From NCBI GenBank assembly GCA_002067705.1, contig MVRL01000104.1, positions 1-64,000 on the forward strand: DNA of 64,000 bases, in the 5' to 3' direction. Below, piece after piece: positions 51,461 to 62,620 of the stretch; position 1 is the first letter of the stretch; every line of letters starts with the position of its first letter. This DNA comes from Methanosaeta sp. PtaU1.Bin112. GTDB taxonomy: Archaea; Halobacteriota; Methanosarcinia; Methanotrichales; Methanotrichaceae. Below the pieces are notes generated by a model that saw nothing but the letters and a program-made list of their open reading frames with translations, was not told where the DNA came from and made no database searches. A program made the position numbers and the translations under genes.

Positions 51461-51469
51461 CTTTATAAG
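51461..51469 (+). promoter_or_regulatory. TATA box of the surface/tubulin-like operon
   Basis: CTTTATAAG, about 50 bases upstream of the first gene at 51515. Predicted start near 51490. The preceding 150 bases are AT-rich, as usual for a dedicated promoter. Confidence 0.5.
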
Positions 51470-51514: not shown

Positions 51515-54500
51515 TTGCTGTTGAAGAGATCAAAGGCAGAAATGCTCATTAAGGCATTTAGTATACCAATAAAATTGAAAATTGATGGATCTAATCAGGC
51601 AACATTGCTATTAATTATCAGCATAATTTCTGCTCTATCCTTAGCTATGCCATGCGCTGCTCAGAGCGGCTACGAAATCAGAAATGCAGCGGTCACCCCG
51701 GAATATGGCTACGAGGATTTCACCTACACCACTCAGGTCTGGATGAGCGAAGACGCGGCAAGAGAAGTAGGCCTGATAGCGGTAACGAAGTACAGCATGA
51801 AGCTCAATATCTATGATCAGAACGAGCTGATCTATTCCGAGTCGTCGCCTACCCAAACAGGCATGGGCAAGACCTCATTTTCCTTCGGCCCCTACAGCTT
51901 CAAGGACAGGTTCGCCATACAAAGCACCAGCAATGCTACCTTTGAGTTCATCTTCTATGCCGGAGGCCAGCAGGTCGCCAAGACTGCCAGAATCAAGGGC
52001 CCTATAGTCCAGCCGCCGACGATGACCGGTACCCCCAGCTTTGAGAAGAAGCCGTATTTCTTCCAGGGAATTGCGCTCTCTGCAGGATTCAAGGACCTGG
52101 AAGGATTAAACCCCAAACCCACCTGCCATCTGGAGATCACCGGTCCTCTGGGAACGGCAGACTCCAGAAGCTGGACCACAGCCGATGTCTCTTGCCAGTC
52201 TTCAGGAAAGAGCTCATACTCCTGCACCGTCTCAGAGGATTTATCTAGTTACAGGACCGGCGGAGATTTTTCCTTCAAGCTTGTATATAACAACCTCAAG
52301 GTCGACCCCCTGACCTACGGACCCTATAACATCTCTCTTCAGCCCTATAACCCCTCTGTAGAAAAAGTCAGCATTCCGAAAACGCTGGACTACACCAACT
52401 TCTCGATCCAGGCTTTTGTCAAGGATGCCGGAGCCAAGATGATAGGAGGCATCCCGGACGGGAGCAAAGCCAGCCTGATAATCAGCCATCCAAGGAGTGG
52501 CGATAAGAACTTTGAATCATCTGATGCCCGAATGGTGGGCAGCTTCATGGTCTACGATTGGACCAATAATAATATACCTGCGCTATTTAATCGCAGTGAT
52601 GTGCAAATGAGCAAGGTTGCACCATTCCAGGCTAAAGTCGTCTACAGGAATGATAATTGGGATTATCAGGCCGATAAGTCCAATATCAGCTTTAAAGTGA
52701 TTGAAGAGATACCCAAATTGGATCTACAATATCCAACCACAGTGTATGTAAGAGAAGGCGAGGTCGCCACACAGGACATATCCGCCACAGTCTCCTTCTC
52801 TAAGGGCGCAGGAGATATGAATCTCCATCTGTCCGGCCCGGATCTGGATCTGAATCAAACTGAGAAAGGAACGCCAATGGGTGGAAACAAGTATCAGTAT
52901 AAGTGGCAGGTTGCCTTCGACGACCGACATATAAATAACAACTATACAATGGCACTATCTTTCATCCAGGAGTCACTGGAAGGGGGTCTGTATGCCTTTG
53001 AGGACAAGACCATCAAAGTATTGCCGCTGTCGGTTCATTTCTCCGGAGGAGTCGTCTCTCCATCTACCGGCCAGTGGAACGGCAGCTACACATATTCTCA
53101 AAAGATAGATACCACAGTTGTTCCTCTAGAGGTCCGGCTGCAGACCTATGATCCCTGCAGCAGTGAGTGGACCGATAAGGGCGCCATGAAGGCGACTGTC
53201 CAGTCATCCTGGCAGAACTGGACGCTTTCGCCATTCAGCTATGAATGCACGGAGATGCAGCAGCAATCAGCCAAGTTCCGTTTCAAGGCCAGCTTTGCCG
53301 GAAAGGATTACTACTCAAAGCCCTACCAGGGCCCGTCCTTTGAAGGAGGCAGTCCCGTCCTAATCTCCCTGGAGAGCGATCCGGTGGTCTACGTCTCAGA
53401 GGGCAGCGATTCTTCTGCCAGCGTTGCCGCAGTGGTCGAATATAGTGCCGGACAGGGGCAGGCCATCCTCAGCCTGCCGGAAAAGAGCATCGATGAAGCC
53501 AGCAAGGGCATCGCTGTGGGCAGCAACCGATACAGGTACGAATGGAGCCTGCCTTTTGATGCGACAGATTCCGGCAAGAGCTTCAATTATACAATCACCT
53601 ACAGGCATCCCAGTCTCGACAGGGATATGCAACTGGCAGAAGATACTATATCCGTCAAGTCGCTATCAATTGACTTCGGCAAAGCCAGTGTTACTCCCGC
53701 AAAAGGCAAGTGGAATGATACATTTGTCTATTCTGTTCCCGTAAGCTCCAGCATAGATGCAGCCGTCAAGCTGGAGGTTTATAATCCCTGCACTCATACC
53801 TGGGTACAGAGGGCAACCCGCAAGGTCAGTGCTGGTGATAGCGTGCTTGATATGAAAGCCCAGCCGCTCAAGAGCAAGTGCGCTGATTTGGAGGGCAATG
53901 CTGCAAGCTTCCGCTATTCTGCCAGCTTTGCCGGCCAGACCTCGGAATCGGAGGTCTATTCAGGCCCAACCATCAGCGGAGGTCAGCCCAGGCTGATCTC
54001 GTTTGACATCGATGAGCCTGCATTGTATGTGACAAAAGACTCCCCTGCCTACCAGTCGGTCAAGGCCGTAGTAGATTTCCCAGGAGAACAGGACACAATG
54101 CAGCTTACCATTACAGGCCCGAACAAGACCCCAGTTACGGAAGAGATGAATAGCGTCTATCTTGGTGCAACTCAGTACTTGTACACCTGGAACAAGGAGT
54201 TCGGCCTAGCTGATGTCGGCAACTACACAATCAGCGTTAAAAACACCAACCCGAGCGGTGCTGGAGGCGCGGTCACATCAGCAGGGACCATGATGGTAGC
54301 TGCTCAGGAAGCCAGCTCTGAACTGGAGCCGAAGGCCATAGGGGATGTAAAATATCTGCCGGTTCTGTTTGTCTCTTCAGAAAAAGGAGCCAGCCAGACT
54401 TTCAGCGCAGAGGTCTTCTCTCCAGGTGGCAAGGGAACAATGACCCTGGATCTGACCGGAGCGGATAAGAGCAGAGAGGTTGATATGGCGGTCACCGATC

Positions 54501-55648
54501 TAGGTGCAAACCGATATGGATATGATTACACGGAGGAGTTTGATGCCTCAAATGCCGGAAACAACTACATGTTCTCCCTTGAGTATCTATTAAATGATCG
54601 GAGGTATTCCATGTTTGACGACCATATCATGCAGGTGGCACTGGAGGGAACTGAGCCTGAACCTATATGGGAGCCAAAGCTCATACTGGAGTACGACACA
54701 ACACTCTATGTACCAGCCGGAGGAAGAGCAGACCAGCTCATCCACGCCACCATCAACTACTCGGAGAGCGGAGGCATCCTCAAGTTGAACCTGACCGGTC
54801 CCTCAAAGAATTTCAGCGAGGATCTAAGCGACAGGGCCATCGGGGATGATAAATATCTTTACGAAGCGGCTATACCCTTTGAGGATAAGGATATAGGAAA
54901 CAGCTTCAAGATCACTCTGGCGTTCAACCACACCGGATTGGGTGACTATCGGTTTGCAGACCATTATATGAGGGTCCTCAAGAAGGCTCCCACTGGAGTG
55001 TCCCAGGAAACCGAAGCTGGAGCCAAGACGAGTGGAGTCTTTAACGAGAGAGATGTGACTGTGATCGGCAATGTGACTCCGGAAATAGGCGTCATCCAGG
55101 CCTGGGACGAAAAAGATCCGATTTATTCACTAACCTATTCCCTTGAGCTTCTGAACTGGAGTTCGCAACAGGTGCCCTGGGTTGAACTCTCGGTAAGGCC
55201 GAACGGAACCGATCAGCCATGGATGATTGTGGGAGGCAAAAAGCGACTGAATCCTGCCACAAGAAGCGTCAGCTGGACACTCAAGCCATTCTGGGAGACG
55301 CCTTTCCTGGGTCAGGCCGAGTACAGGTTCCTGATCAATGGAGCTGAGACGCAAACCTTTGAGGGTCCGGAGATCATTGCCGTGGTATCCAACGCAGGAG
55401 ACCGCCTGAATAACAAAAACCATGACTTCTGGGCAACGGTCAATTCCAACGAGAACCTGACCATATGCCTCCTCGGTGGTGATAACGCAATTCCTGAACT
55501 GATCAAGACCTGGACGACCAAAGGGCAGTGCCAGGATTACCTGGTCGGGTCCGGCGAGCAGACGTTTAGATGGCAGATTCCAGAGGCACAAACGTCGCCG
55601 TACTACGATTTCGATATTCGGAAAAAGTCCGGGGAGTTGGCGCAATGA
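51515..55648 (+). CDS. Giant secreted protein of alternating Ig-like modules
   Basis: 1377 residues. A signal peptide (hydrophobic core about 30-45, then Ala-Ala-Gln) is followed by beta-sandwich modules of two kinds. Type A (about 85 residues) recurs five times from about residue 400, with Leu-Tyr-Val or Val-Tyr-Val, Leu-x-Leu-x-Gly-Pro and an (Asn/Asp)-x-Tyr-x-Tyr-x-Trp turn. Type B (about 105 residues) recurs about four times, with Val-(Thr/Ser)-Pro, Tyr-(Asp/Asn)-Pro-Cys and a terminal Tyr-x-Gly-Pro. Many Asn-glycosylation sites; no C-terminal membrane anchor. The frame opens at TTG 51515; ATG 51542 is an alternative start. First gene of the tubulin-like operon. Confidence 0.75.
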   Translation: MLLKRSKAEMLIKAFSIPIKLKIDGSNQATLLLIISIISALSLAMPCAAQSGYEIRNAAVTPEYGYEDFTYTTQVWMSEDAAREVGLIAVTKYSMKLNIYDQNELIYSESSPTQTGMGKTSFSFGPYSFKDRFAIQSTSNATFEFIFYAGGQQVAKTARIKGPIVQPPTMTGTPSFEKKPYFFQGIALSAGFKDLEGLNPKPTCHLEITGPLGTADSRSWTTADVSCQSSGKSSYSCTVSEDLSSYRTGGDFSFKLVYNNLKVDPLTYGPYNISLQPYNPSVEKVSIPKTLDYTNFSIQAFVKDAGAKMIGGIPDGSKASLIISHPRSGDKNFESSDARMVGSFMVYDWTNNNIPALFNRSDVQMSKVAPFQAKVVYRNDNWDYQADKSNISFKVIEEIPKLDLQYPTTVYVREGEVATQDISATVSFSKGAGDMNLHLSGPDLDLNQTEKGTPMGGNKYQYKWQVAFDDRHINNNYTMALSFIQESLEGGLYAFEDKTIKVLPLSVHFSGGVVSPSTGQWNGSYTYSQKIDTTVVPLEVRLQTYDPCSSEWTDKGAMKATVQSSWQNWTLSPFSYECTEMQQQSAKFRFKASFAGKDYYSKPYQGPSFEGGSPVLISLESDPVVYVSEGSDSSASVAAVVEYSAGQGQAILSLPEKSIDEASKGIAVGSNRYRYEWSLPFDATDSGKSFNYTITYRHPSLDRDMQLAEDTISVKSLSIDFGKASVTPAKGKWNDTFVYSVPVSSSIDAAVKLEVYNPCTHTWVQRATRKVSAGDSVLDMKAQPLKSKCADLEGNAASFRYSASFAGQTSESEVYSGPTISGGQPRLISFDIDEPALYVTKDSPAYQSVKAVVDFPGEQDTMQLTITGPNKTPVTEEMNSVYLGATQYLYTWNKEFGLADVGNYTISVKNTNPSGAGGAVTSAGTMMVAAQEASSELEPKAIGDVKYLPVLFVSSEKGASQTFSAEVFSPGGKGTMTLDLTGADKSREVDMAVTDLGANRYGYDYTEEFDASNAGNNYMFSLEYLLNDRRYSMFDDHIMQVALEGTEPEPIWEPKLILEYDTTLYVPAGGRADQLIHATINYSESGGILKLNLTGPSKNFSEDLSDRAIGDDKYLYEAAIPFEDKDIGNSFKITLAFNHTGLGDYRFADHYMRVLKKAPTGVSQETEAGAKTSGVFNERDVTVIGNVTPEIGVIQAWDEKDPIYSLTYSLELLNWSSQQVPWVELSVRPNGTDQPWMIVGGKKRLNPATRSVSWTLKPFWETPFLGQAEYRFLINGAETQTFEGPEIIAVVSNAGDRLNNKNHDFWATVNSNENLTICLLGGDNAIPELIKTWTTKGQCQDYLVGSGEQTFRWQIPEAQTSPYYDFDIRKKSGELAQ

Positions 55649-57177
55649 GAGGCAAACTCATTTCGATCCTGATTGTATTTGCGTTACTGCTATCGGTGCA
55701 AAACGTCGTGGGACCGGCTACACAATCTGCCGGATCATCGGGCGGCAGTGGAGGCGGTGGTGGTGGCGGAGGCAGCAAGTCGGTTGATATCGACAGGCTG
55801 CTCAAGGCCGTAGAGGATGCAAAGAAGAATAAGCCGGCCAAGCTGGAAGAATTGAAGACGGTCCTTTGGAAGGATCCCATCACCAGCGAAGAATATGTAA
55901 TGCCCACAGTGCTCATGTACTACAAAGGAAACAATACAACTGTGAGCCGAAACCAGCCACTGGAGATCATAACGATTGCCACCAACAACAACCCTCTGGA
56001 GATGCGTCGCATGCTCGACCTCTATCTGGAGGTAAAGGAGCCTGGCTCGGATAAGTACGAGCGGATCAACTCCTGGCCGGAGAAGATTCAGACCAACGAA
56101 TATGATGAGAAGACCAATACCACCTATAGAATCTGGGGGATGCTGCCCTCATTTGCTTACCTTGAGAATGTGGGAGAGGTTAAAGTGCGGGCGAATATAA
56201 GCGATGGCGTCAACAAATGGAGCACGACGAGCTACAAGGATCTTATGCCGCCCTTCTACTCGGAGCTGGTCTTCAATGTCACCAACAGCCTGCCGGTCAT
56301 GAGCAACTTCAATGTCACCCCACCGGGCCTGGTGAGGTACAACGATCCCATCGAGTACAAAGCAGATATTGCCGACGCCGATGGAGATCTGCTCAATGTG
56401 ACGCTGCACATCCTCGATGAGAACGGCGTTGAGCTGAGGAATGAAACATTGAATATAAAGCCAGGCCCAGTGAGCTTCAAGGCTAACGAATACGGATTCT
56501 TCAATGAAGCGGACGCCGGCAAAAACTTTACCTATTACTACAGCTATGACGATGGTATTGATTTCGTTAGCAAAGATCCTGTAGAGCCTTTAAAAGGACC
56601 AGATATCAGGAAAGGACCAAAGCTATCCGTGGATAAGCTGGGATTTTCTGCAAGCAGCGAGAATTATTATTGGTGGGAAACGTACGGATTCAATGTAAGA
56701 GCAAAGAATCTGAATCCTGAAGAGTACGACGTGGCATTTACACTCAGCACCAAGACAAATGAAAGCGAATGGAATACAGTAGAGACGAAAAAGATGAGAA
56801 TCGGTCCTGATCCAGTAGAGGTATATTTCAATGACACCAAACCATTCCAGGTTACCGATGCCGGACAGACTTTCTACTACAGAGTGAAGTACTCGGAATA
56901 TGATCAGACCGGCAAAGACAGCATGGATCAGAAAGGAGCCAGGATCAATGCCAAGATAGTTCCCTACAGCATCCATAGCCCTGTAATGGTCTTTAATCTG
57001 GCTCTAATGCTGATCCTGATCCTCTTGGGTGGCTTCTTCATCGAGAGAAATCTCAAAAAAGGAGTTGAGGCTCACGAACGGGCATCAGGCAAAGCATCTG
57101 GTGCCAGGAAAAGAGCGGAAGGAGAAACTGGGGAGAGCATTATTAACAAAATTGGCAAAATGCTGAGGAGGAGCTAG
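55645..57177 (+). CDS. Single-pass surface protein with Gly linker, operon gene 2
   Basis: 510 residues from ATG 55645, which overlaps the preceding stop as ATGA; the longer frame only extends back into the previous gene. Order: signal peptide (1-22), a Ser/Gly linker with eight consecutive Gly, a helical segment, three or more beta-sandwich modules resembling the PKD/cadherin-like kind (Asp-Ala-Asp-Gly-Asp near residue 250), one membrane helix near 445-465, and a basic cytoplasmic tail of about 45 residues. The tail places it where it could touch cytoplasmic partners such as the tubulin-like protein. Function unknown. Confidence 0.7.
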   Translation: MRGKLISILIVFALLLSVQNVVGPATQSAGSSGGSGGGGGGGGSKSVDIDRLLKAVEDAKKNKPAKLEELKTVLWKDPITSEEYVMPTVLMYYKGNNTTVSRNQPLEIITIATNNNPLEMRRMLDLYLEVKEPGSDKYERINSWPEKIQTNEYDEKTNTTYRIWGMLPSFAYLENVGEVKVRANISDGVNKWSTTSYKDLMPPFYSELVFNVTNSLPVMSNFNVTPPGLVRYNDPIEYKADIADADGDLLNVTLHILDENGVELRNETLNIKPGPVSFKANEYGFFNEADAGKNFTYYYSYDDGIDFVSKDPVEPLKGPDIRKGPKLSVDKLGFSASSENYYWWETYGFNVRAKNLNPEEYDVAFTLSTKTNESEWNTVETKKMRIGPDPVEVYFNDTKPFQVTDAGQTFYYRVKYSEYDQTGKDSMDQKGARINAKIVPYSIHSPVMVFNLALMLILILLGGFFIERNLKKGVEAHERASGKASGARKRAEGETGESIINKIGKMLRRS

Positions 57178-57180
57178 AAA

Positions 57181-57822
57181 ATGCCGATAGAAACTGCATT
57201 GACTGCAGACAACCTATTTGCTGCAGGCACGATCGCGCTGGCAATAGGCCTCGTTCTTGCAGGAGCTTTGCACATATATAATCTGAATAAGGTGCACAAA
57301 TTGATGGTGATTCTGCAAAAGAAGACCGTTTCAAAGTCTAATCTTTACAAAGAGATGACTGTTGCACAGGGATCGAACTTCACCGCTCTGGCCCTGACAT
57401 CATGGATAATGCTCTTTGTGGCCATTGCTTTCCTTTACCTGTTGGTTCCAACCGTCCTTCCCTTTAGCTACATGAAAATCGCCGAATTAGCATCAAATCC
57501 AATGGGTTTTACCATATTCGGCTTGTCCATAGCGTTATTGGTAGCAATAATTATTCTATTTGTGGACAAGCTTCCCGAAGATCTCAGGGAATTCAAGCTG
57601 ACGGAATTGTACAGCTTCTATTCCATCTCCAAAGCCACGAAGAAAATGATAGGATTGGCGACAGTCCTTCTGTCACTTTCGGTCATTCTTTCGGCCTATC
57701 TGGGCACAATCTATCCAAGCCGCTCTTCGAGTATCGAGTTCATTAGCCTTCTATTAATAATAGCATCGGCTTTTATCCTGATTATGCCGATCTACAAGGA
57801 ATCCTGGGTGGCGATAAGATGA
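57181..57822 (+). CDS. Polytopic membrane protein, operon gene 3
   Basis: 213 residues. Five hydrophobic segments (about 10-30, 70-92, 108-128, 158-178, 186-206) with a charged cytoplasmic loop (Lys-Lys-Thr-Val-Ser-Lys-Ser-Asn-Leu-Tyr-Lys-Glu) after the first and another acidic/basic loop after the third. No transporter or enzyme motif. It starts 3 bases after the preceding stop and overlaps the tubulin-like gene by 4 bases (ATGA), indicating coordinated synthesis. A membrane platform for the cytoplasmic partner is a reasonable inference. Confidence 0.65.
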   Translation: MPIETALTADNLFAAGTIALAIGLVLAGALHIYNLNKVHKLMVILQKKTVSKSNLYKEMTVAQGSNFTALALTSWIMLFVAIAFLYLLVPTVLPFSYMKIAELASNPMGFTIFGLSIALLVAIIILFVDKLPEDLREFKLTELYSFYSISKATKKMIGLATVLLSLSVILSAYLGTIYPSRSSSIEFISLLLIIASAFILIMPIYKESWVAIR

Positions 57823-59486
57823 AACTATGCATTGTAGGTATTGGCGGCGCTGGAGGCAAGATCACTCAGGAGTTTCTTGGAAATGTGGATCTGGACTTTC
57901 AGCTTCTCTCTCGCATTACAGAGGCAGAATATGTCTCCCCTGGAATGATACAGGGCATATGGCTTGAGGCAGATAAGAACGATGCCATGAATATCCAGCA
58001 TTTCTTTGGAGATATGAATGAGGGATGCTATCCATGCTTCTATATTCCGCATGATGCCGTGTCGGATGGATGTGAGGTTCACAGGCTGGTCCGGGAGAAA
58101 TACGGCTACGATGTAAAGAAGCAGGGATTTGTGAGGGACGCTCAATACCTTAAAGCCATATTTGAGATATTTGATACAGATGAGGAGATACAGCAGACAG
58201 TAGCCAGAACCATGACCAAAGAGATGGTAGAGGCAAAAGGCGGCCCTTCAACCAGCAATGGCTCTGCGACAATCCAGGCACCCAATCCCATATTCGACAG
58301 TGCCTGGAATGCCATAAGAGATTTTACCACCCTTGGCAATGGAGAATGCGACGGAATCCTCTTCATCGTCTCATTCGGGGGAGGAACTGGAACCGGCTTC
58401 ATCAATCCTATCATAAACCATATCAGAAATGAAGGAAAAGCGGATTATCCGGTATTCGTCCTGGGAGTATTGACTGAGCTGGGTGATTTTGCCGATAAAG
58501 CCCAGTTCTCAAAGGAGGGAAGAAGGAACCTGGCTGCAATAAGTGCTATTTACGATCTTCTAACAAAAGGAAGCGGAGCCAATGGTGTGATCATCGTCGA
58601 TAATGAGATTCTGCTAAAGAATTTTGGGAAAGATTTTGCCTCTGCCAATCGATTTATCCATAAAATCATGCAGCCCGTTGTGGCTGCCCGCGATTATCCA
58701 GATGAAATCCCACCAAGCCAGGCGATAGCGCAGCACTCCTCCGGCGGACTGAGAAGGCCGCCGATTTATGTGCCGCTATATGCATCAATGCCGAGAAGCA
58801 AGGACCCTGAAGAAGCACTTGTCAGAAAAGCCTTGAGCGAAGAAGGAAGGCTCTTTGGCTGCAGCCCGGAAAAGGCGGACTTTGCTATGGTCTTCTGCAG
58901 GGGCTTCATAGATTCGGACAGAATAAGAGAAGCGCTCTCCAAGCAGACGGGCATCGCGCCTCTGAATATTTGGCCGATGAGAAAGATGGGTGAAGGAGAG
59001 AACGAAATCATGATCCTGCTTCGCAATCCCTATGGTGGCGATCCAAAAGCTTACCTTAAGAATAATACTCTAGAGAGCAGATTCTGCAAGGTAATTTCGC
59101 TTGCCTTGCAGTATATCAATCAACGGCCTGAGGACCTGTTTTACGAAGGAAAAGAATCGGGATCTAGTGGAACGGATGGAAAGGCAGATCAAGTCAGGCT
59201 TACTGCTGCATCAAAGGAGGCGCTGAAGACGTTCTTCTTCGGCCCGGACGGCTCAGGCAAGACAAGCGGCTTCGTATTCGAGCTTAAGGAAGCTAGAAAA
59301 AGGCTTAGAGATGGAGAAAAGCCGTTCTTCATAAATCCTTTGAGAATATTCCAAAAAGATGCCGCCCTTTCCGCGGATTCCAGGAAATCGCATGAGCGAG
59401 AAAAGAGCGCCGAAGAAATAGCCAGCATTGTTGATGCCAGGATCAACGAGAAGCTGATTGAGATGGGATTGATTAAAGCAGCATGA
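57819..59486 (+). CDS. Divergent tubulin/FtsZ-superfamily GTPase-like protein, operon gene 4
   Basis: 555 residues. The N-terminal nucleotide loop Gly-Ile-Gly-Gly-Ala-Gly-Gly (residues 7-13) and the tubulin signature GGGTGTG (187-193) after a hydrophobic strand are clear; Ile-Val-Asp-Asn-Glu then aligns with the Met-Asp-Asn of FtsZ before helix H7. The T7 motif (Asn-x-Asp-x-x-Asp) is not apparent, so hydrolysis may be absent or altered. A long insert lies between the first strand and the signature, and a C-terminal extension carries a Walker A-like GPDGSGKT at 475-482. It does not match FtsZ or CetZ length. Probably a filament-forming partner of the operon's envelope proteins. Confidence 0.8.
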   Translation: MKLCIVGIGGAGGKITQEFLGNVDLDFQLLSRITEAEYVSPGMIQGIWLEADKNDAMNIQHFFGDMNEGCYPCFYIPHDAVSDGCEVHRLVREKYGYDVKKQGFVRDAQYLKAIFEIFDTDEEIQQTVARTMTKEMVEAKGGPSTSNGSATIQAPNPIFDSAWNAIRDFTTLGNGECDGILFIVSFGGGTGTGFINPIINHIRNEGKADYPVFVLGVLTELGDFADKAQFSKEGRRNLAAISAIYDLLTKGSGANGVIIVDNEILLKNFGKDFASANRFIHKIMQPVVAARDYPDEIPPSQAIAQHSSGGLRRPPIYVPLYASMPRSKDPEEALVRKALSEEGRLFGCSPEKADFAMVFCRGFIDSDRIREALSKQTGIAPLNIWPMRKMGEGENEIMILLRNPYGGDPKAYLKNNTLESRFCKVISLALQYINQRPEDLFYEGKESGSSGTDGKADQVRLTAASKEALKTFFFGPDGSGKTSGFVFELKEARKRLRDGEKPFFINPLRIFQKDAALSADSRKSHEREKSAEEIASIVDARINEKLIEMGLIKAA

Positions 59487-59742: not shown

Positions 59743-60327
59743 ATGCTCAATGGATTCAGGAATCTCACGATATTGCTTCTGGCGGCAATGGCCGCATTTT
59801 CTCTAGCTTTATTTGCAGCGGCGGGAACAGCTCTTTCCCAGGACGACAGCAGCTACAGCCCAGCTCATCCCGTTGGCTCAGGGGATGACGACTGGTGGAC
59901 AACGTATCCAGATCAGAATGATAACTCCGGCAAGGAGGTAGAACACCTGGACTGGGTGACAAAGTCTCTCAAGGAAAAGCCGGTGCTCATTCTCATCCAT
60001 AGCAGCAACTGTGTTCCCTGCCTGACCCAGACGCCAAGAATCAAGGCAGCTGCAAGCAAATACAGCGGTAATCTGGCATACTACGATGTTCTGGGAGAAG
60101 GTGGCAGCCTGCAACAGGCAGTCGATATCCTGGAGGTCTATGATCCCTACGGCATGGGAAAACCGGTCGTCCCGACTACCATCTTCATCACCCTGGCCAA
60201 GGGCCCGGACGGGAAGGTTACCGTAGCATGGCGCAGCGAGATCGATGCCATGAGCGAGGAGAGGATCGACTCCTATGCGAAGGATGCCATATACTACTAC
60301 AAGCAGAACAGCGCTGATTGGACCTGA
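59743..60327 (+). CDS. Secreted thioredoxin-fold protein
   Basis: 194 residues. A signal peptide (hydrophobic core about 9-28) is followed by a Ser/Asp/Tyr-rich linker and a thioredoxin fold with Ile-His-Ser-Ser-Asn-Cys-Val-Pro-Cys, the CxxC redox site at about residues 89-92, and a cis-Pro candidate in Val-Val-Pro-Thr. Acts outside the cytoplasmic membrane, where the redoxin-CcdA fusion encoded next could supply or receive electrons. A CTAAATATTTA box at about 59692-59702 is the likely promoter. Confidence 0.82.
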   Translation: MLNGFRNLTILLLAAMAAFSLALFAAAGTALSQDDSSYSPAHPVGSGDDDWWTTYPDQNDNSGKEVEHLDWVTKSLKEKPVLILIHSSNCVPCLTQTPRIKAAASKYSGNLAYYDVLGEGGSLQQAVDILEVYDPYGMGKPVVPTTIFITLAKGPDGKVTVAWRSEIDAMSEERIDSYAKDAIYYYKQNSADWT

Positions 60328-60340
60328 TAAGAAGCTGAGA

Positions 60341-61747
60341 GTGATACCGATAGCCGCCAAAAAATGTAAGATCAGGCTGCATCAGGCCGCTTCACTTCTC
60401 TTTTTCGCTCTCGCGATTCAGGCCATTTTTTCCAGCCCCGCCCTTGCCGAACAGGCCATAAAGGCCCCGCAGTTTTCTGCCACGGGAGTTGATGGCAAGA
60501 ACTTCTCTCTCTCCGGCTTTACCGGCGCGCCCCTGATCCTTCATATCACCAACATCGAGATTCCGATCTGCGTGGAATGCGAGGTTTCCCTGGAGGGGCA
60601 GGTAGAGGAGCTGGCAAGGCTGAAGGCCCTGCACCCGGCCGTCCAGATAGCCACAGTGAACATGAGGAAGAATCCTTACTCCCGTGATGGCAAGTCTCTG
60701 GCGGAAAAGTGGTGGAAGGTCAACATCACCTGGCCCTGGACTGAGGACATCGAGCCCTACACTATCGCCAGCAAGTATCTCGACTATTGGAATGTGAGAG
60801 GCGGCTCCTCTAATCCGACGATCCTTCTCATCGATAAAGACGGCAATATCGCCGCCGTCTATCACGTCTACCGGGTGGGGGAGGGAGTGCAGGATGGCGT
60901 GCAGAGCGCAGAGAAGCTCTATAGCAAGCTGGTGGAGGTGAGCGGCTCGGACTGGAAGGGGCTGGAGGGACAGGTCTTCCGGCAGGATGTCTCCGCATTC
61001 GGCATGTTTTTGCTGGGCATAGTAACCTCGCTTGCTCCCTGTTCCATCGCTCTCATGATCGCCGTCTTCTCCTATGTGATGACCATGAGACGAAAGGACG
61101 AATACCTGAGAAAGAGCGTCTCCACATCGAAGGAGGGCTTTATGATTGGAATTGCCTTCACCTTCGGCATGGCTGCCGTCTTCTTTGTCCTGGGGCTGTT
61201 CATCTCTCAGGTGGGCCTGTTCATAAGAGACTCCCGGGTCTTCGACCTGATAGCCGGACTGATCATGATACTCCTGGGAATCAGCAACATCAAGCCGCTG
61301 GAAGAGATCTTCGAGCCAGTGAGGGCTAAAATTCGCAGCTATCGGGGAGAAGGAGAGTATTGCGAGACCAGGAAAAGCCTGCTGCAAAGGTCGGTTGAGG
61401 CGTCCGTTGCCCTGTTCAAGCATTCCTCATTCATCGGTGCCTTCACTCTCGGCATCTTCTTTGCCCTGGGCTGGGCACCCTGCGCTCTCTCCATGGTTCT
61501 GCCGGTATTGATCTGGCTGGCTTCGCAAAATATCACTCCTCTGGCTGGGGGCGTGATGCTCTTCATCTTCGGCATCGGTCATGGCGCGCCAATCATTCCC
61601 ATTGCCACTTTTTCTAGAGCAGTGGGCGGGAGGATAGGAGAGAGGTATGTCTCCATCGGTGCCTGGACGACTAAATTCTTCGGGCTGCTGGTGATAGTGG
61701 TGGGCGTGGTTTATGCGGTGAGATATGCGGGAATACTGCTCTGGTAG
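60341..61747 (+). CDS. Redoxin domain fused to CcdA/DsbD-type membrane electron carrier
   Basis: About 468 residues. A signal segment leads into a peroxiredoxin/TlpA-like domain with Ile-Cys-Val-Glu-Cys (CxxC) near its start, then six or more membrane helices carrying two conserved Cys-bearing motifs, Leu-Ala-Pro-Cys-Ser and Trp-Ala-Pro-Cys-Ala, as in CcdA/DsbD proteins that move thiol electrons across the membrane. The start is uncertain: GTG 60341 begins a good signal peptide 13 bases after the preceding stop, whereas the frame is open from 60275. Domain order (redoxin first) differs from DsbD, where the periplasmic domains flank the membrane core. Confidence 0.85.
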   Translation: MIPIAAKKCKIRLHQAASLLFFALAIQAIFSSPALAEQAIKAPQFSATGVDGKNFSLSGFTGAPLILHITNIEIPICVECEVSLEGQVEELARLKALHPAVQIATVNMRKNPYSRDGKSLAEKWWKVNITWPWTEDIEPYTIASKYLDYWNVRGGSSNPTILLIDKDGNIAAVYHVYRVGEGVQDGVQSAEKLYSKLVEVSGSDWKGLEGQVFRQDVSAFGMFLLGIVTSLAPCSIALMIAVFSYVMTMRRKDEYLRKSVSTSKEGFMIGIAFTFGMAAVFFVLGLFISQVGLFIRDSRVFDLIAGLIMILLGISNIKPLEEIFEPVRAKIRSYRGEGEYCETRKSLLQRSVEASVALFKHSSFIGAFTLGIFFALGWAPCALSMVLPVLIWLASQNITPLAGGVMLFIFGIGHGAPIIPIATFSRAVGGRIGERYVSIGAWTTKFFGLLVIVVGVVYAVRYAGILLW

Positions 61748-61843
61748 AAGCAAAGGGAACAAGAGAAAAAAGCTGGAGAGCAGACGATGCCTTAATATGG
61801 CGCATTGGCCATTTGCTGGGAATCCTGGTTAAGGAGGGCTGAA

Positions 61844-62620
61844 ATGAAGGAGATCAGGAAGCTGATTGTGTTAGCGGTGCTGATGATGGCTCTGATGGGC
61901 CTATCGTCCTCTGCCAACTACATGTACGAAAAAGCATCAGTCAAGGGCGTAGGATACAAGAACGTGGAGATGATCGTCTCCACCCAGACGGGCTTTGACG
62001 GCCAGAAGATGGTTGAAAAGGAATCGGGTTCCGGAAATGTCATCACAGAGAAGACGGAACTGGAGGGAGAGAGGCAGATAGATACGGGATGCTATCCGCG
62101 CTATGTCAGCAACATAGGACAGTGGGTTGATTACAGCGTCCGAAAGGATTACATCAACTTCACAAAAGAGGCGGAGTTCGAGTACATGCCGGTCTCCTAT
62201 CAGACTGGCACCTATGACCAGAAATGGATTGAGAAGCTCTGCGTTCAGAACTACCGGATCGGCGCTGTGCTTACGGAGATGTACACCCATGCCGAGCACC
62301 TGCAGAAGGCTACCGAGATCAAGACCAGATCCTATCCGACATACTGCGGCGATATCTCCGGCCCTGGTCGATGCAAGCTGCCAGTTTCATGCTGCACAGG
62401 CGTTTTGGAGGCGAACCTGAACAGCAATGCTATAGGCGTAGCCCACATCGGATGGCTTTCCAGAGATCCGAGGGCTGATGATCAGCTCAAAGGGCGGCAT
62501 GCTGAGTACGGGCGCAGCGTCGAGGAACTGACCGGCGTATTCTCCATCGAGAAGTTCATTCAGCTCTGGGGCAACTCCACCTGCGGGGCCATCAGCGTCG
62601 ACTGGCTGCCCTGCGCATGA
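61844..62620 (+). CDS. Secreted Cys-rich protein of the thiol-disulfide operon
   Basis: 258 residues with a signal peptide (about 1-22). The mature part has eight cysteines, in Asp-Thr-Gly-Cys, Lys-Leu-Cys, Tyr-Cys-Gly, Arg-Cys, Ser-Cys-Cys, Ser-Thr-Cys-Gly and a C-terminal Pro-Cys-Ala, and is rich in Tyr. GGAGG (61833-61837) lies 6 bases before ATG 61844. It follows the redoxin-CcdA gene by 96 bases. A natural reading is that it is a substrate of the neighbouring redox proteins. No family recognised. Confidence 0.65.
   Translation: MKEIRKLIVLAVLMMALMGLSSSANYMYEKASVKGVGYKNVEMIVSTQTGFDGQKMVEKESGSGNVITEKTELEGERQIDTGCYPRYVSNIGQWVDYSVRKDYINFTKEAEFEYMPVSYQTGTYDQKWIEKLCVQNYRIGAVLTEMYTHAEHLQKATEIKTRSYPTYCGDISGPGRCKLPVSCCTGVLEANLNSNAIGVAHIGWLSRDPRADDQLKGRHAEYGRSVEELTGVFSIEKFIQLWGNSTCGAISVDWLPCA

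Follow-up and report, generated by a model that had tools for sequence, protein, structure and literature searches.

The window analysed in this work, i.e. the whole stretch of 64,000 nucleotides, carries four consecutive genes, named here A, B, C and T, that are preceded by a putative promoter element:

51462..51468, + strand: TATA-box-like promoter element (AAAAGGCTTTATAAGTAG context) located 5′ of A, recognised as a sequence motif.
51515..55648, + strand: gene A, ORF with a TTG start, encoding a predicted secreted protein of 1377 aa made of tandem beta-rich modules and without membrane anchor.
55645..57177, + strand: gene B, ORF with an ATG start inside an ATGA overlap, encoding a protein with a signal sequence, a multi-beta-sandwich ectodomain and one C-terminal transmembrane segment (TM).
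57181..57822, + strand: gene C, ORF encoding a protein of 213 aa with five TMs and a predicted N-out/C-in topology (hydropathy and charge).
57819..59486, + strand: gene T, ORF encoding a divergent, cytoplasmic tubulin-superfamily protein of 555 aa (PF00091, PDB profile search and hhalign).

The order and junctions given for these genes by the initial annotation were confirmed: all four are ORFs of the + strand, A and B overlap by 4 bp (ATGA), B and C are separated by 3 bp, and C and T again overlap by 4 bp (ATGA). A further in-frame ATG for B is found at 55570. The TATA-like motif also precedes A in two relatives (L048 and L050), and a third one (L051) has a variant of it. Since T is followed by a gap of 256 bp, the transcription unit probably stops at this gene. 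Judged from its sequence, A-B-C-T is an operon. The genome that carries it (3.4 Mb, 200 contigs) has genes for two FtsZs and a CetZ-like protein as well, and the canonical ftsZ gene reported separately at 8.6-9.6 kb is indeed located apart from the operon, on the - strand (Pfam match C104:9090-9566).

The product of A has a signal sequence and no C-terminal anchor. Its modular nature is supported by self-comparison: among 666 pairs of sequence windows, 183 exceed the highest score reached in 800 shuffles, and the predominant offset is about 210 residues. This protein had been described as a secreted giant made of Ig modules: a signal sequence and repeated modules were both found, but the term "Ig" rests on the beta-rich repeats, A having no Pfam Ig domain. 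More generally, none of the A, B and C proteins of the window has a Pfam or NCBIfam match above the cut-off. A is single-copy, without any paralogue in the window genome, and the length of its product ranges from 537 to 1460 aa among relatives. As proposed initially, B appears to be a single-pass surface protein, with its signal sequence and single C-terminal TM. Its AlphaFold model is of low confidence (pLDDT 52) and includes two better-predicted beta-sandwich modules, which match arrays of beta-sandwich domains. The complement proteins C3 and C5 are among the Foldseek matches of B; a complement-like function was discarded since these matches have low TM-scores and reflect arrays of beta-sandwiches of a generic kind. 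The cytoplasmic tail of B has about six residues (ERRFYR) in many lineages and about 45, mostly basic, in the clade of the window. C is a polytopic protein, as expected, and its five TMs are accompanied by two long conserved loops that the charge pattern places on the cytoplasmic side; in this predicted topology, these loops are basic and contain invariant residues. A scan of all B and C members revealed only weak and scattered family matches, and no recognisable transporter family match for C.

By sequence and profile comparison, T is a genuine member of the tubulin superfamily. The protein of the window matches PF00091 with an E-value of 1.2e-6 and 29.4 bits, slightly below the cut-off of 33 bits, and this domain is matched by all 23 T members (best E-value 4.3e-9). 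A profile built from 23 T sequences and compared with all PDB sequences retrieved CetZ, FtsZ, alpha/beta tubulin, TubZ and Asgard tubulin as top matches (E-values from 5.5e-5); the best matches are exclusively chains of the tubulin superfamily and the top two are 4b45 and 3zid, which we take to be CetZ entries. In hhalign, T aligned with CetZ along most of its length, C-terminal domain included (323 columns, probability 99%, 21% identity). The corresponding values for FtsZ are 83% and 186 columns, but the FtsZ profile comprises two sequences only, so that the contrast between CetZ and FtsZ is soft. These approaches agree with the initial proposal of a divergent tubulin/FtsZ-superfamily protein distinct from FtsZ. 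The AlphaFold model of T, computed from eight close sequences, has a pLDDT of 37.9, too low to show a fold. At the level of motifs, the aligned members carry the N-terminal glycine loop GIGGxGG and the GGGTGTG signature; the T1, T4 and T6-like motifs are intact, and T1, T4, T5 and a DN(E/Q)xL segment at H7 are conserved. According to the alignment, the acidic catalytic residues of the T7 region of FtsZ are not conserved in the clade of the window, which has no conserved acid in this region, whereas a distant clade keeps an LQDD-like segment with D. Therefore, the GTP hydrolysis and turnover known from FtsZ may be lacking in T; this suggests, without being a proof, that GTP hydrolysis by T is slow or absent.

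The comparison with the known families indicates that T belongs to neither FtsZ nor CetZ, and probably not to FtsZl1 either, and is a distinct family. It shares the core of the superfamily with CetZ, but it is much longer (509-687 aa among members, compared to about 370 for CetZ), carries insertions in the stretch from T1 to T4 and shows no close similarity to CetZ, given the low identity of the profile alignment. Furthermore, T has fixed membrane and surface partners, and the window genome has its own CetZ-like protein. T shares the GGGTGTG signature and the GTPase domain with FtsZ1 and FtsZ2; however, it scores 11.4 bits against TIGR00065 (FtsZ), far from the cut-off of 295.2, and the canonical FtsZs are encoded away from its operon. 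Against PF13809 (Tubulin_2, FtsZl1), the T protein of the window scores 12.8 bits for a cut-off of 27, and weak matches are found in all 23 members (best E-value 5e-4). Like T, FtsZl1 is divergent, coexists with FtsZ and shares its operons with genes for membrane and surface proteins. However, FtsZl1 has a coiled coil and an alpha-helical C-terminus and lacks an identifiable T6-H7 region (PMC2875224), whereas T shows a T6/H7 region and aligns with CetZ through the C-terminal domain. In hhalign, the C-terminal half of T aligns with this CetZ domain and leaves about 115 residues over, which argues against a coiled coil and alpha-helical C-terminus of the FtsZl1 type. Two segments of the intermediate domain, R-x-(Y/F)-PG and CxP...RG, are similar in T and in eukaryotic-type tubulins, as is DN(E/Q)xL at H7. 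These similar segments prompted us to consider a special kinship between them, which we do not claim: there is no significant pairwise match between T and eukaryotic-type tubulins, and the scores of the CetZ, tubulin and FtsZ profiles differ by a few bits. Concerning the TubZ/RepX plasmid systems, their plasmid location with partition partners was not found for T, whose locus is chromosomal in two complete genomes (G130 and G252). The passages available from two earlier works (PMC9871819, PMC9856176) do not describe an A-B-C-T operon, and T sequences may lie inside the "Halo.Tub" or "non-canonical" groups of their trees. The main text of the FtsZl1 paper (PMC2875224) does not mention Methanosaeta; its supplement lists eight archaeal members.

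Conservation of gene order in relatives had been named as a check of the initial proposal. A-B-C-T was found on one strand and in the same order at 41 loci (26 including the window, 7 and 8), a strict synteny that is far beyond chance; 40 of them belong to Methanotrichaceae and the remaining one is found elsewhere. The C gene of three loci (L064, L068 and L069) was identified with tblastn. At two others (L043 and L067), the contig ends after B and the rest of the set is cut off. The sole exception to the full operon is L169, from a single-contig genome (G428), which carries C-T and a truncated B but no A, implying that A may be dispensable. The second T copy found in G027, G425 and G426 is a repetition of the whole A-B-C-T operon. 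In addition, the T frame of G026 (C38:8721-10454) and that of G009 (C116) have one internal stop or are seemingly split, due to decay or to sequencing error.

The relatives are mostly metagenome assemblies, and absences were counted only in genomes that are at least 90% complete. T is present in 45 of 50 Methanotrichaceae genomes and in 32 of the 33 that reach this completeness. A search of T in 60 relatives was positive for most members of the family, and outside the family gave weak matches only, in ORFs of 368-394 aa. The phylum-wide census, which covered T, B and C in 393 Halobacteriota genomes, found each of them strongly present in the same 15 genomes, the three genes never being apart. 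The two complete chromosomes that carry T (G130 and G252) match in size those of two cultured species, M. thermophila (thermoacetophila) PT and M. harundinacea 6Ac, respectively (PMC3349665), and the T locus is commonly located 3′ of rnhB and of an aminotransferase gene. The T protein of G130 (L121, 9969-11498) is on a far longer branch than that of its sister species, but its B is not; a relaxed or changed selection on this T is possible.

One complete set (L120) was found in a genome from another class (G092, contig C75), next to a gene encoding a SpaA/SdrD/VWA protein of 1271 aa with a weak PGF-CTERM match. Contamination was suspected, but the GC content and tetranucleotide profile of this contig agree with those of another G092 contig. 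The closest relatives of G092 are devoid of the set and its T nests inside Methanotrichaceae in the T tree. The set of G092 was probably acquired by horizontal transfer, which is the favoured explanation.

A is the first gene and adjoins B at all loci but one, and its product has no anchor of its own. These two features would be expected if B and C made up a dedicated membrane platform for the secretion or assembly of A, organised from the cytoplasm by T. However, the ordinary signal sequence of A points to the general secretion pathway and C is small and resembles no recognisable transporter family; we therefore consider an export or assembly machine to be rather improbable.

The divergence of the partners is unequal. 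The correlation of distances with those of T is 0.90 for C, 0.82 for B and 0.51 for A; that of C is still 0.90 once the distance of the aminotransferase is removed, although correlated divergence may partly reflect the shared inheritance of one locus. At one locus (L066), an A similar to that of the window (54% identity) precedes a B-C-T of the distant clade (34% identity for T), indicating that A was exchanged between lineages separately from B-C-T. Given the very short tail of B in many species, C would be a better docking site for T, which fits with the C-T correlation.

The initial annotation had also proposed an envelope-spanning arrangement, with which the domain layout (secreted A, single-pass B, five-TM C and cytoplasmic T) is in agreement. 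Gene order, co-occurrence, correlated divergence and superfamily membership are observed and were combined with a topology predicted from hydropathy and charge. On this basis, A-B-C-T may form one envelope-spanning complex in which T, docked by C, places or controls a B-A surface complex, a reading to which we give about an even chance. In this complex, T would bind GTP and assemble on the cytoplasmic side of the membrane, with the cytoplasmic loops of C as its docking site; C would touch the membrane segment of B; and the ectodomain of B would retain the secreted, modular A on the cell surface. The site or timing of A display would then depend on the state or place of the T assembly. Defined sites such as cell-cell junctions or filament poles are the most plausible ones, and A would act there as an adhesin or a tether. 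We infer here the physical contacts, GTP binding, polymerisation and a control directed from the inside to the outside. A fast and swappable outer part combined with a constant inner part fits an adhesion or junction role. It is also conceivable, but only tentatively so, that a dedicated archaeal filament of the tubulin superfamily is linked mechanically or spatially, by a bridge of two membrane proteins, to a modular extracellular fibre that is interchangeable, and that this cytoplasmic cytoskeleton patterns surface adhesion in multicellular sheathed filaments.

The direction of signalling could also be the opposite. A and B would then sense contact with a neighbour cell, the sheath wall or a syntrophic partner, and C would signal to T, which would act as a GTP-state switch and not as a scaffold. 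A is variable and swapped like a recognition part, the B-C-T core is constant, and a T7 region without conserved catalytic acid in the clade of the window is more compatible with a switch than with a dynamic filament. However, no output protein is consistently linked to the operon in the neighbourhoods that were read and members of the tubulin superfamily are not known to act as simple switches. Such an outside-in sensor is thus unlikely, although it deserves consideration.

The partners of FtsZl1 comprise GTPases and kinases along with VWA and OmpA proteins (Makarova and Koonin 2010, PMC2875224), and VWA, GTPase and OmpA partners had initially been considered as absent from the locus of T. 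This holds for the window, where no VWA gene was found near the operon, but not for its relatives. VWA proteins are encoded in the vicinity of the operon in G029, G119, G217, G152, G252, G033, G035, G022, G020 and G092, and a homologous gene adjoins T in G006. Once close relatives are collapsed, this corresponds to about six of roughly thirteen lineages with a VWA gene within about 10 kb, for a background of roughly four matches per genome of 2-3 Mb. Therefore, the contrast with the FtsZl1 systems is smaller than claimed. Together with the weak PF13809 matches of all T members, these neighbours would be consistent with a membrane remodelling or vesicle system analogous to that of FtsZl1. However, the nearby VWA genes differ in type and position and are thus better regarded as associates than as constant members of the set. 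Moreover, the neighbours examined include no recognisable GTPase, kinase or OmpA partner, and T has the T6/H7 region that is not identifiable in FtsZl1. A remodelling system thus appears highly improbable.

Methanotrichaceae are sheathed and the manner in which the hoops of their sheath are inserted is unknown (PMC11576556). It may therefore be asked whether the complex is responsible for inserting or anchoring these hoops, or for making the plug between the cells of the filament. In the window, T is followed on the + strand (59743-61747) by genes encoding a secreted thioredoxin-like protein and a DsbD-like/redoxin fusion, which are kept in part of the genus and could be involved in the disulfide linking of surface proteins. 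Further downstream, 61805-62620 (+ strand) encodes a secreted protein rich in Cys; 5-16 matches to its family were found per Methanotrichaceae genome checked. Its copy number and the map position in G130 compared with PMC11576556 indicate that it is probably a sheath (SH) protein. This succession of genes would agree with a sheath role, the hoops being disulfide-linked. Furthermore, SH proteins occur in the same organisms as A and some of them have long Ig-like extensions (PMC11576556) that resemble A; however, they are multicopy, whereas A is single-copy and tied to T.

The genome G004 (complete, 99%) weighs against such a role. Its chromosome of 3,008,626 bp matches in size that of M. concilii (now soehngenii) GP6 (PMC3349665). 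It is the only complete genome without the set: it has no B, C or T, and its usual site has no A, rnhB and the aminotransferase gene being followed by unrelated genes. However, it contains 10 matches to the probable sheath-protein family. Sheath building as an essential role is thus disfavoured and the sheath or septum function suggested at first is weakened. In addition, the thioredoxin-DsbD linkage is found only in part of one genus and the proximity of a multicopy gene may be due to chance. Overall, a role of the complex in hoops or plugs is improbable.

To our knowledge, little is known of archaeal tubulin relatives beyond division rings and the poorly understood CetZ and FtsZl1, and few of them have fixed partners. 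T is a distinct family whose three partners, one of them predicted outside the cell, are encoded next to it in an invariable order. This suggests that A-B-C-T is an unstudied machine that joins the inner cell skeleton to the outer surface. The set is found in the genomes that match the cultured M. thermoacetophila PT and M. harundinacea 6Ac and is apparently absent from M. soehngenii GP6, which provides a natural comparison. The coupling of a cytoskeleton to the cell surface thus becomes testable in archaea that are important for global methane production. Finally, the CetZ-like gene of the window genome (L003/L075, G000:C161) is located 45 bp 3′ of a gene whose product is a single-pass surface protein containing DUF11/CARDB/BatD-like domains, and it also faces BatA/VWA-like genes; it is thus a second tubulin relative adjoining surface-protein genes.
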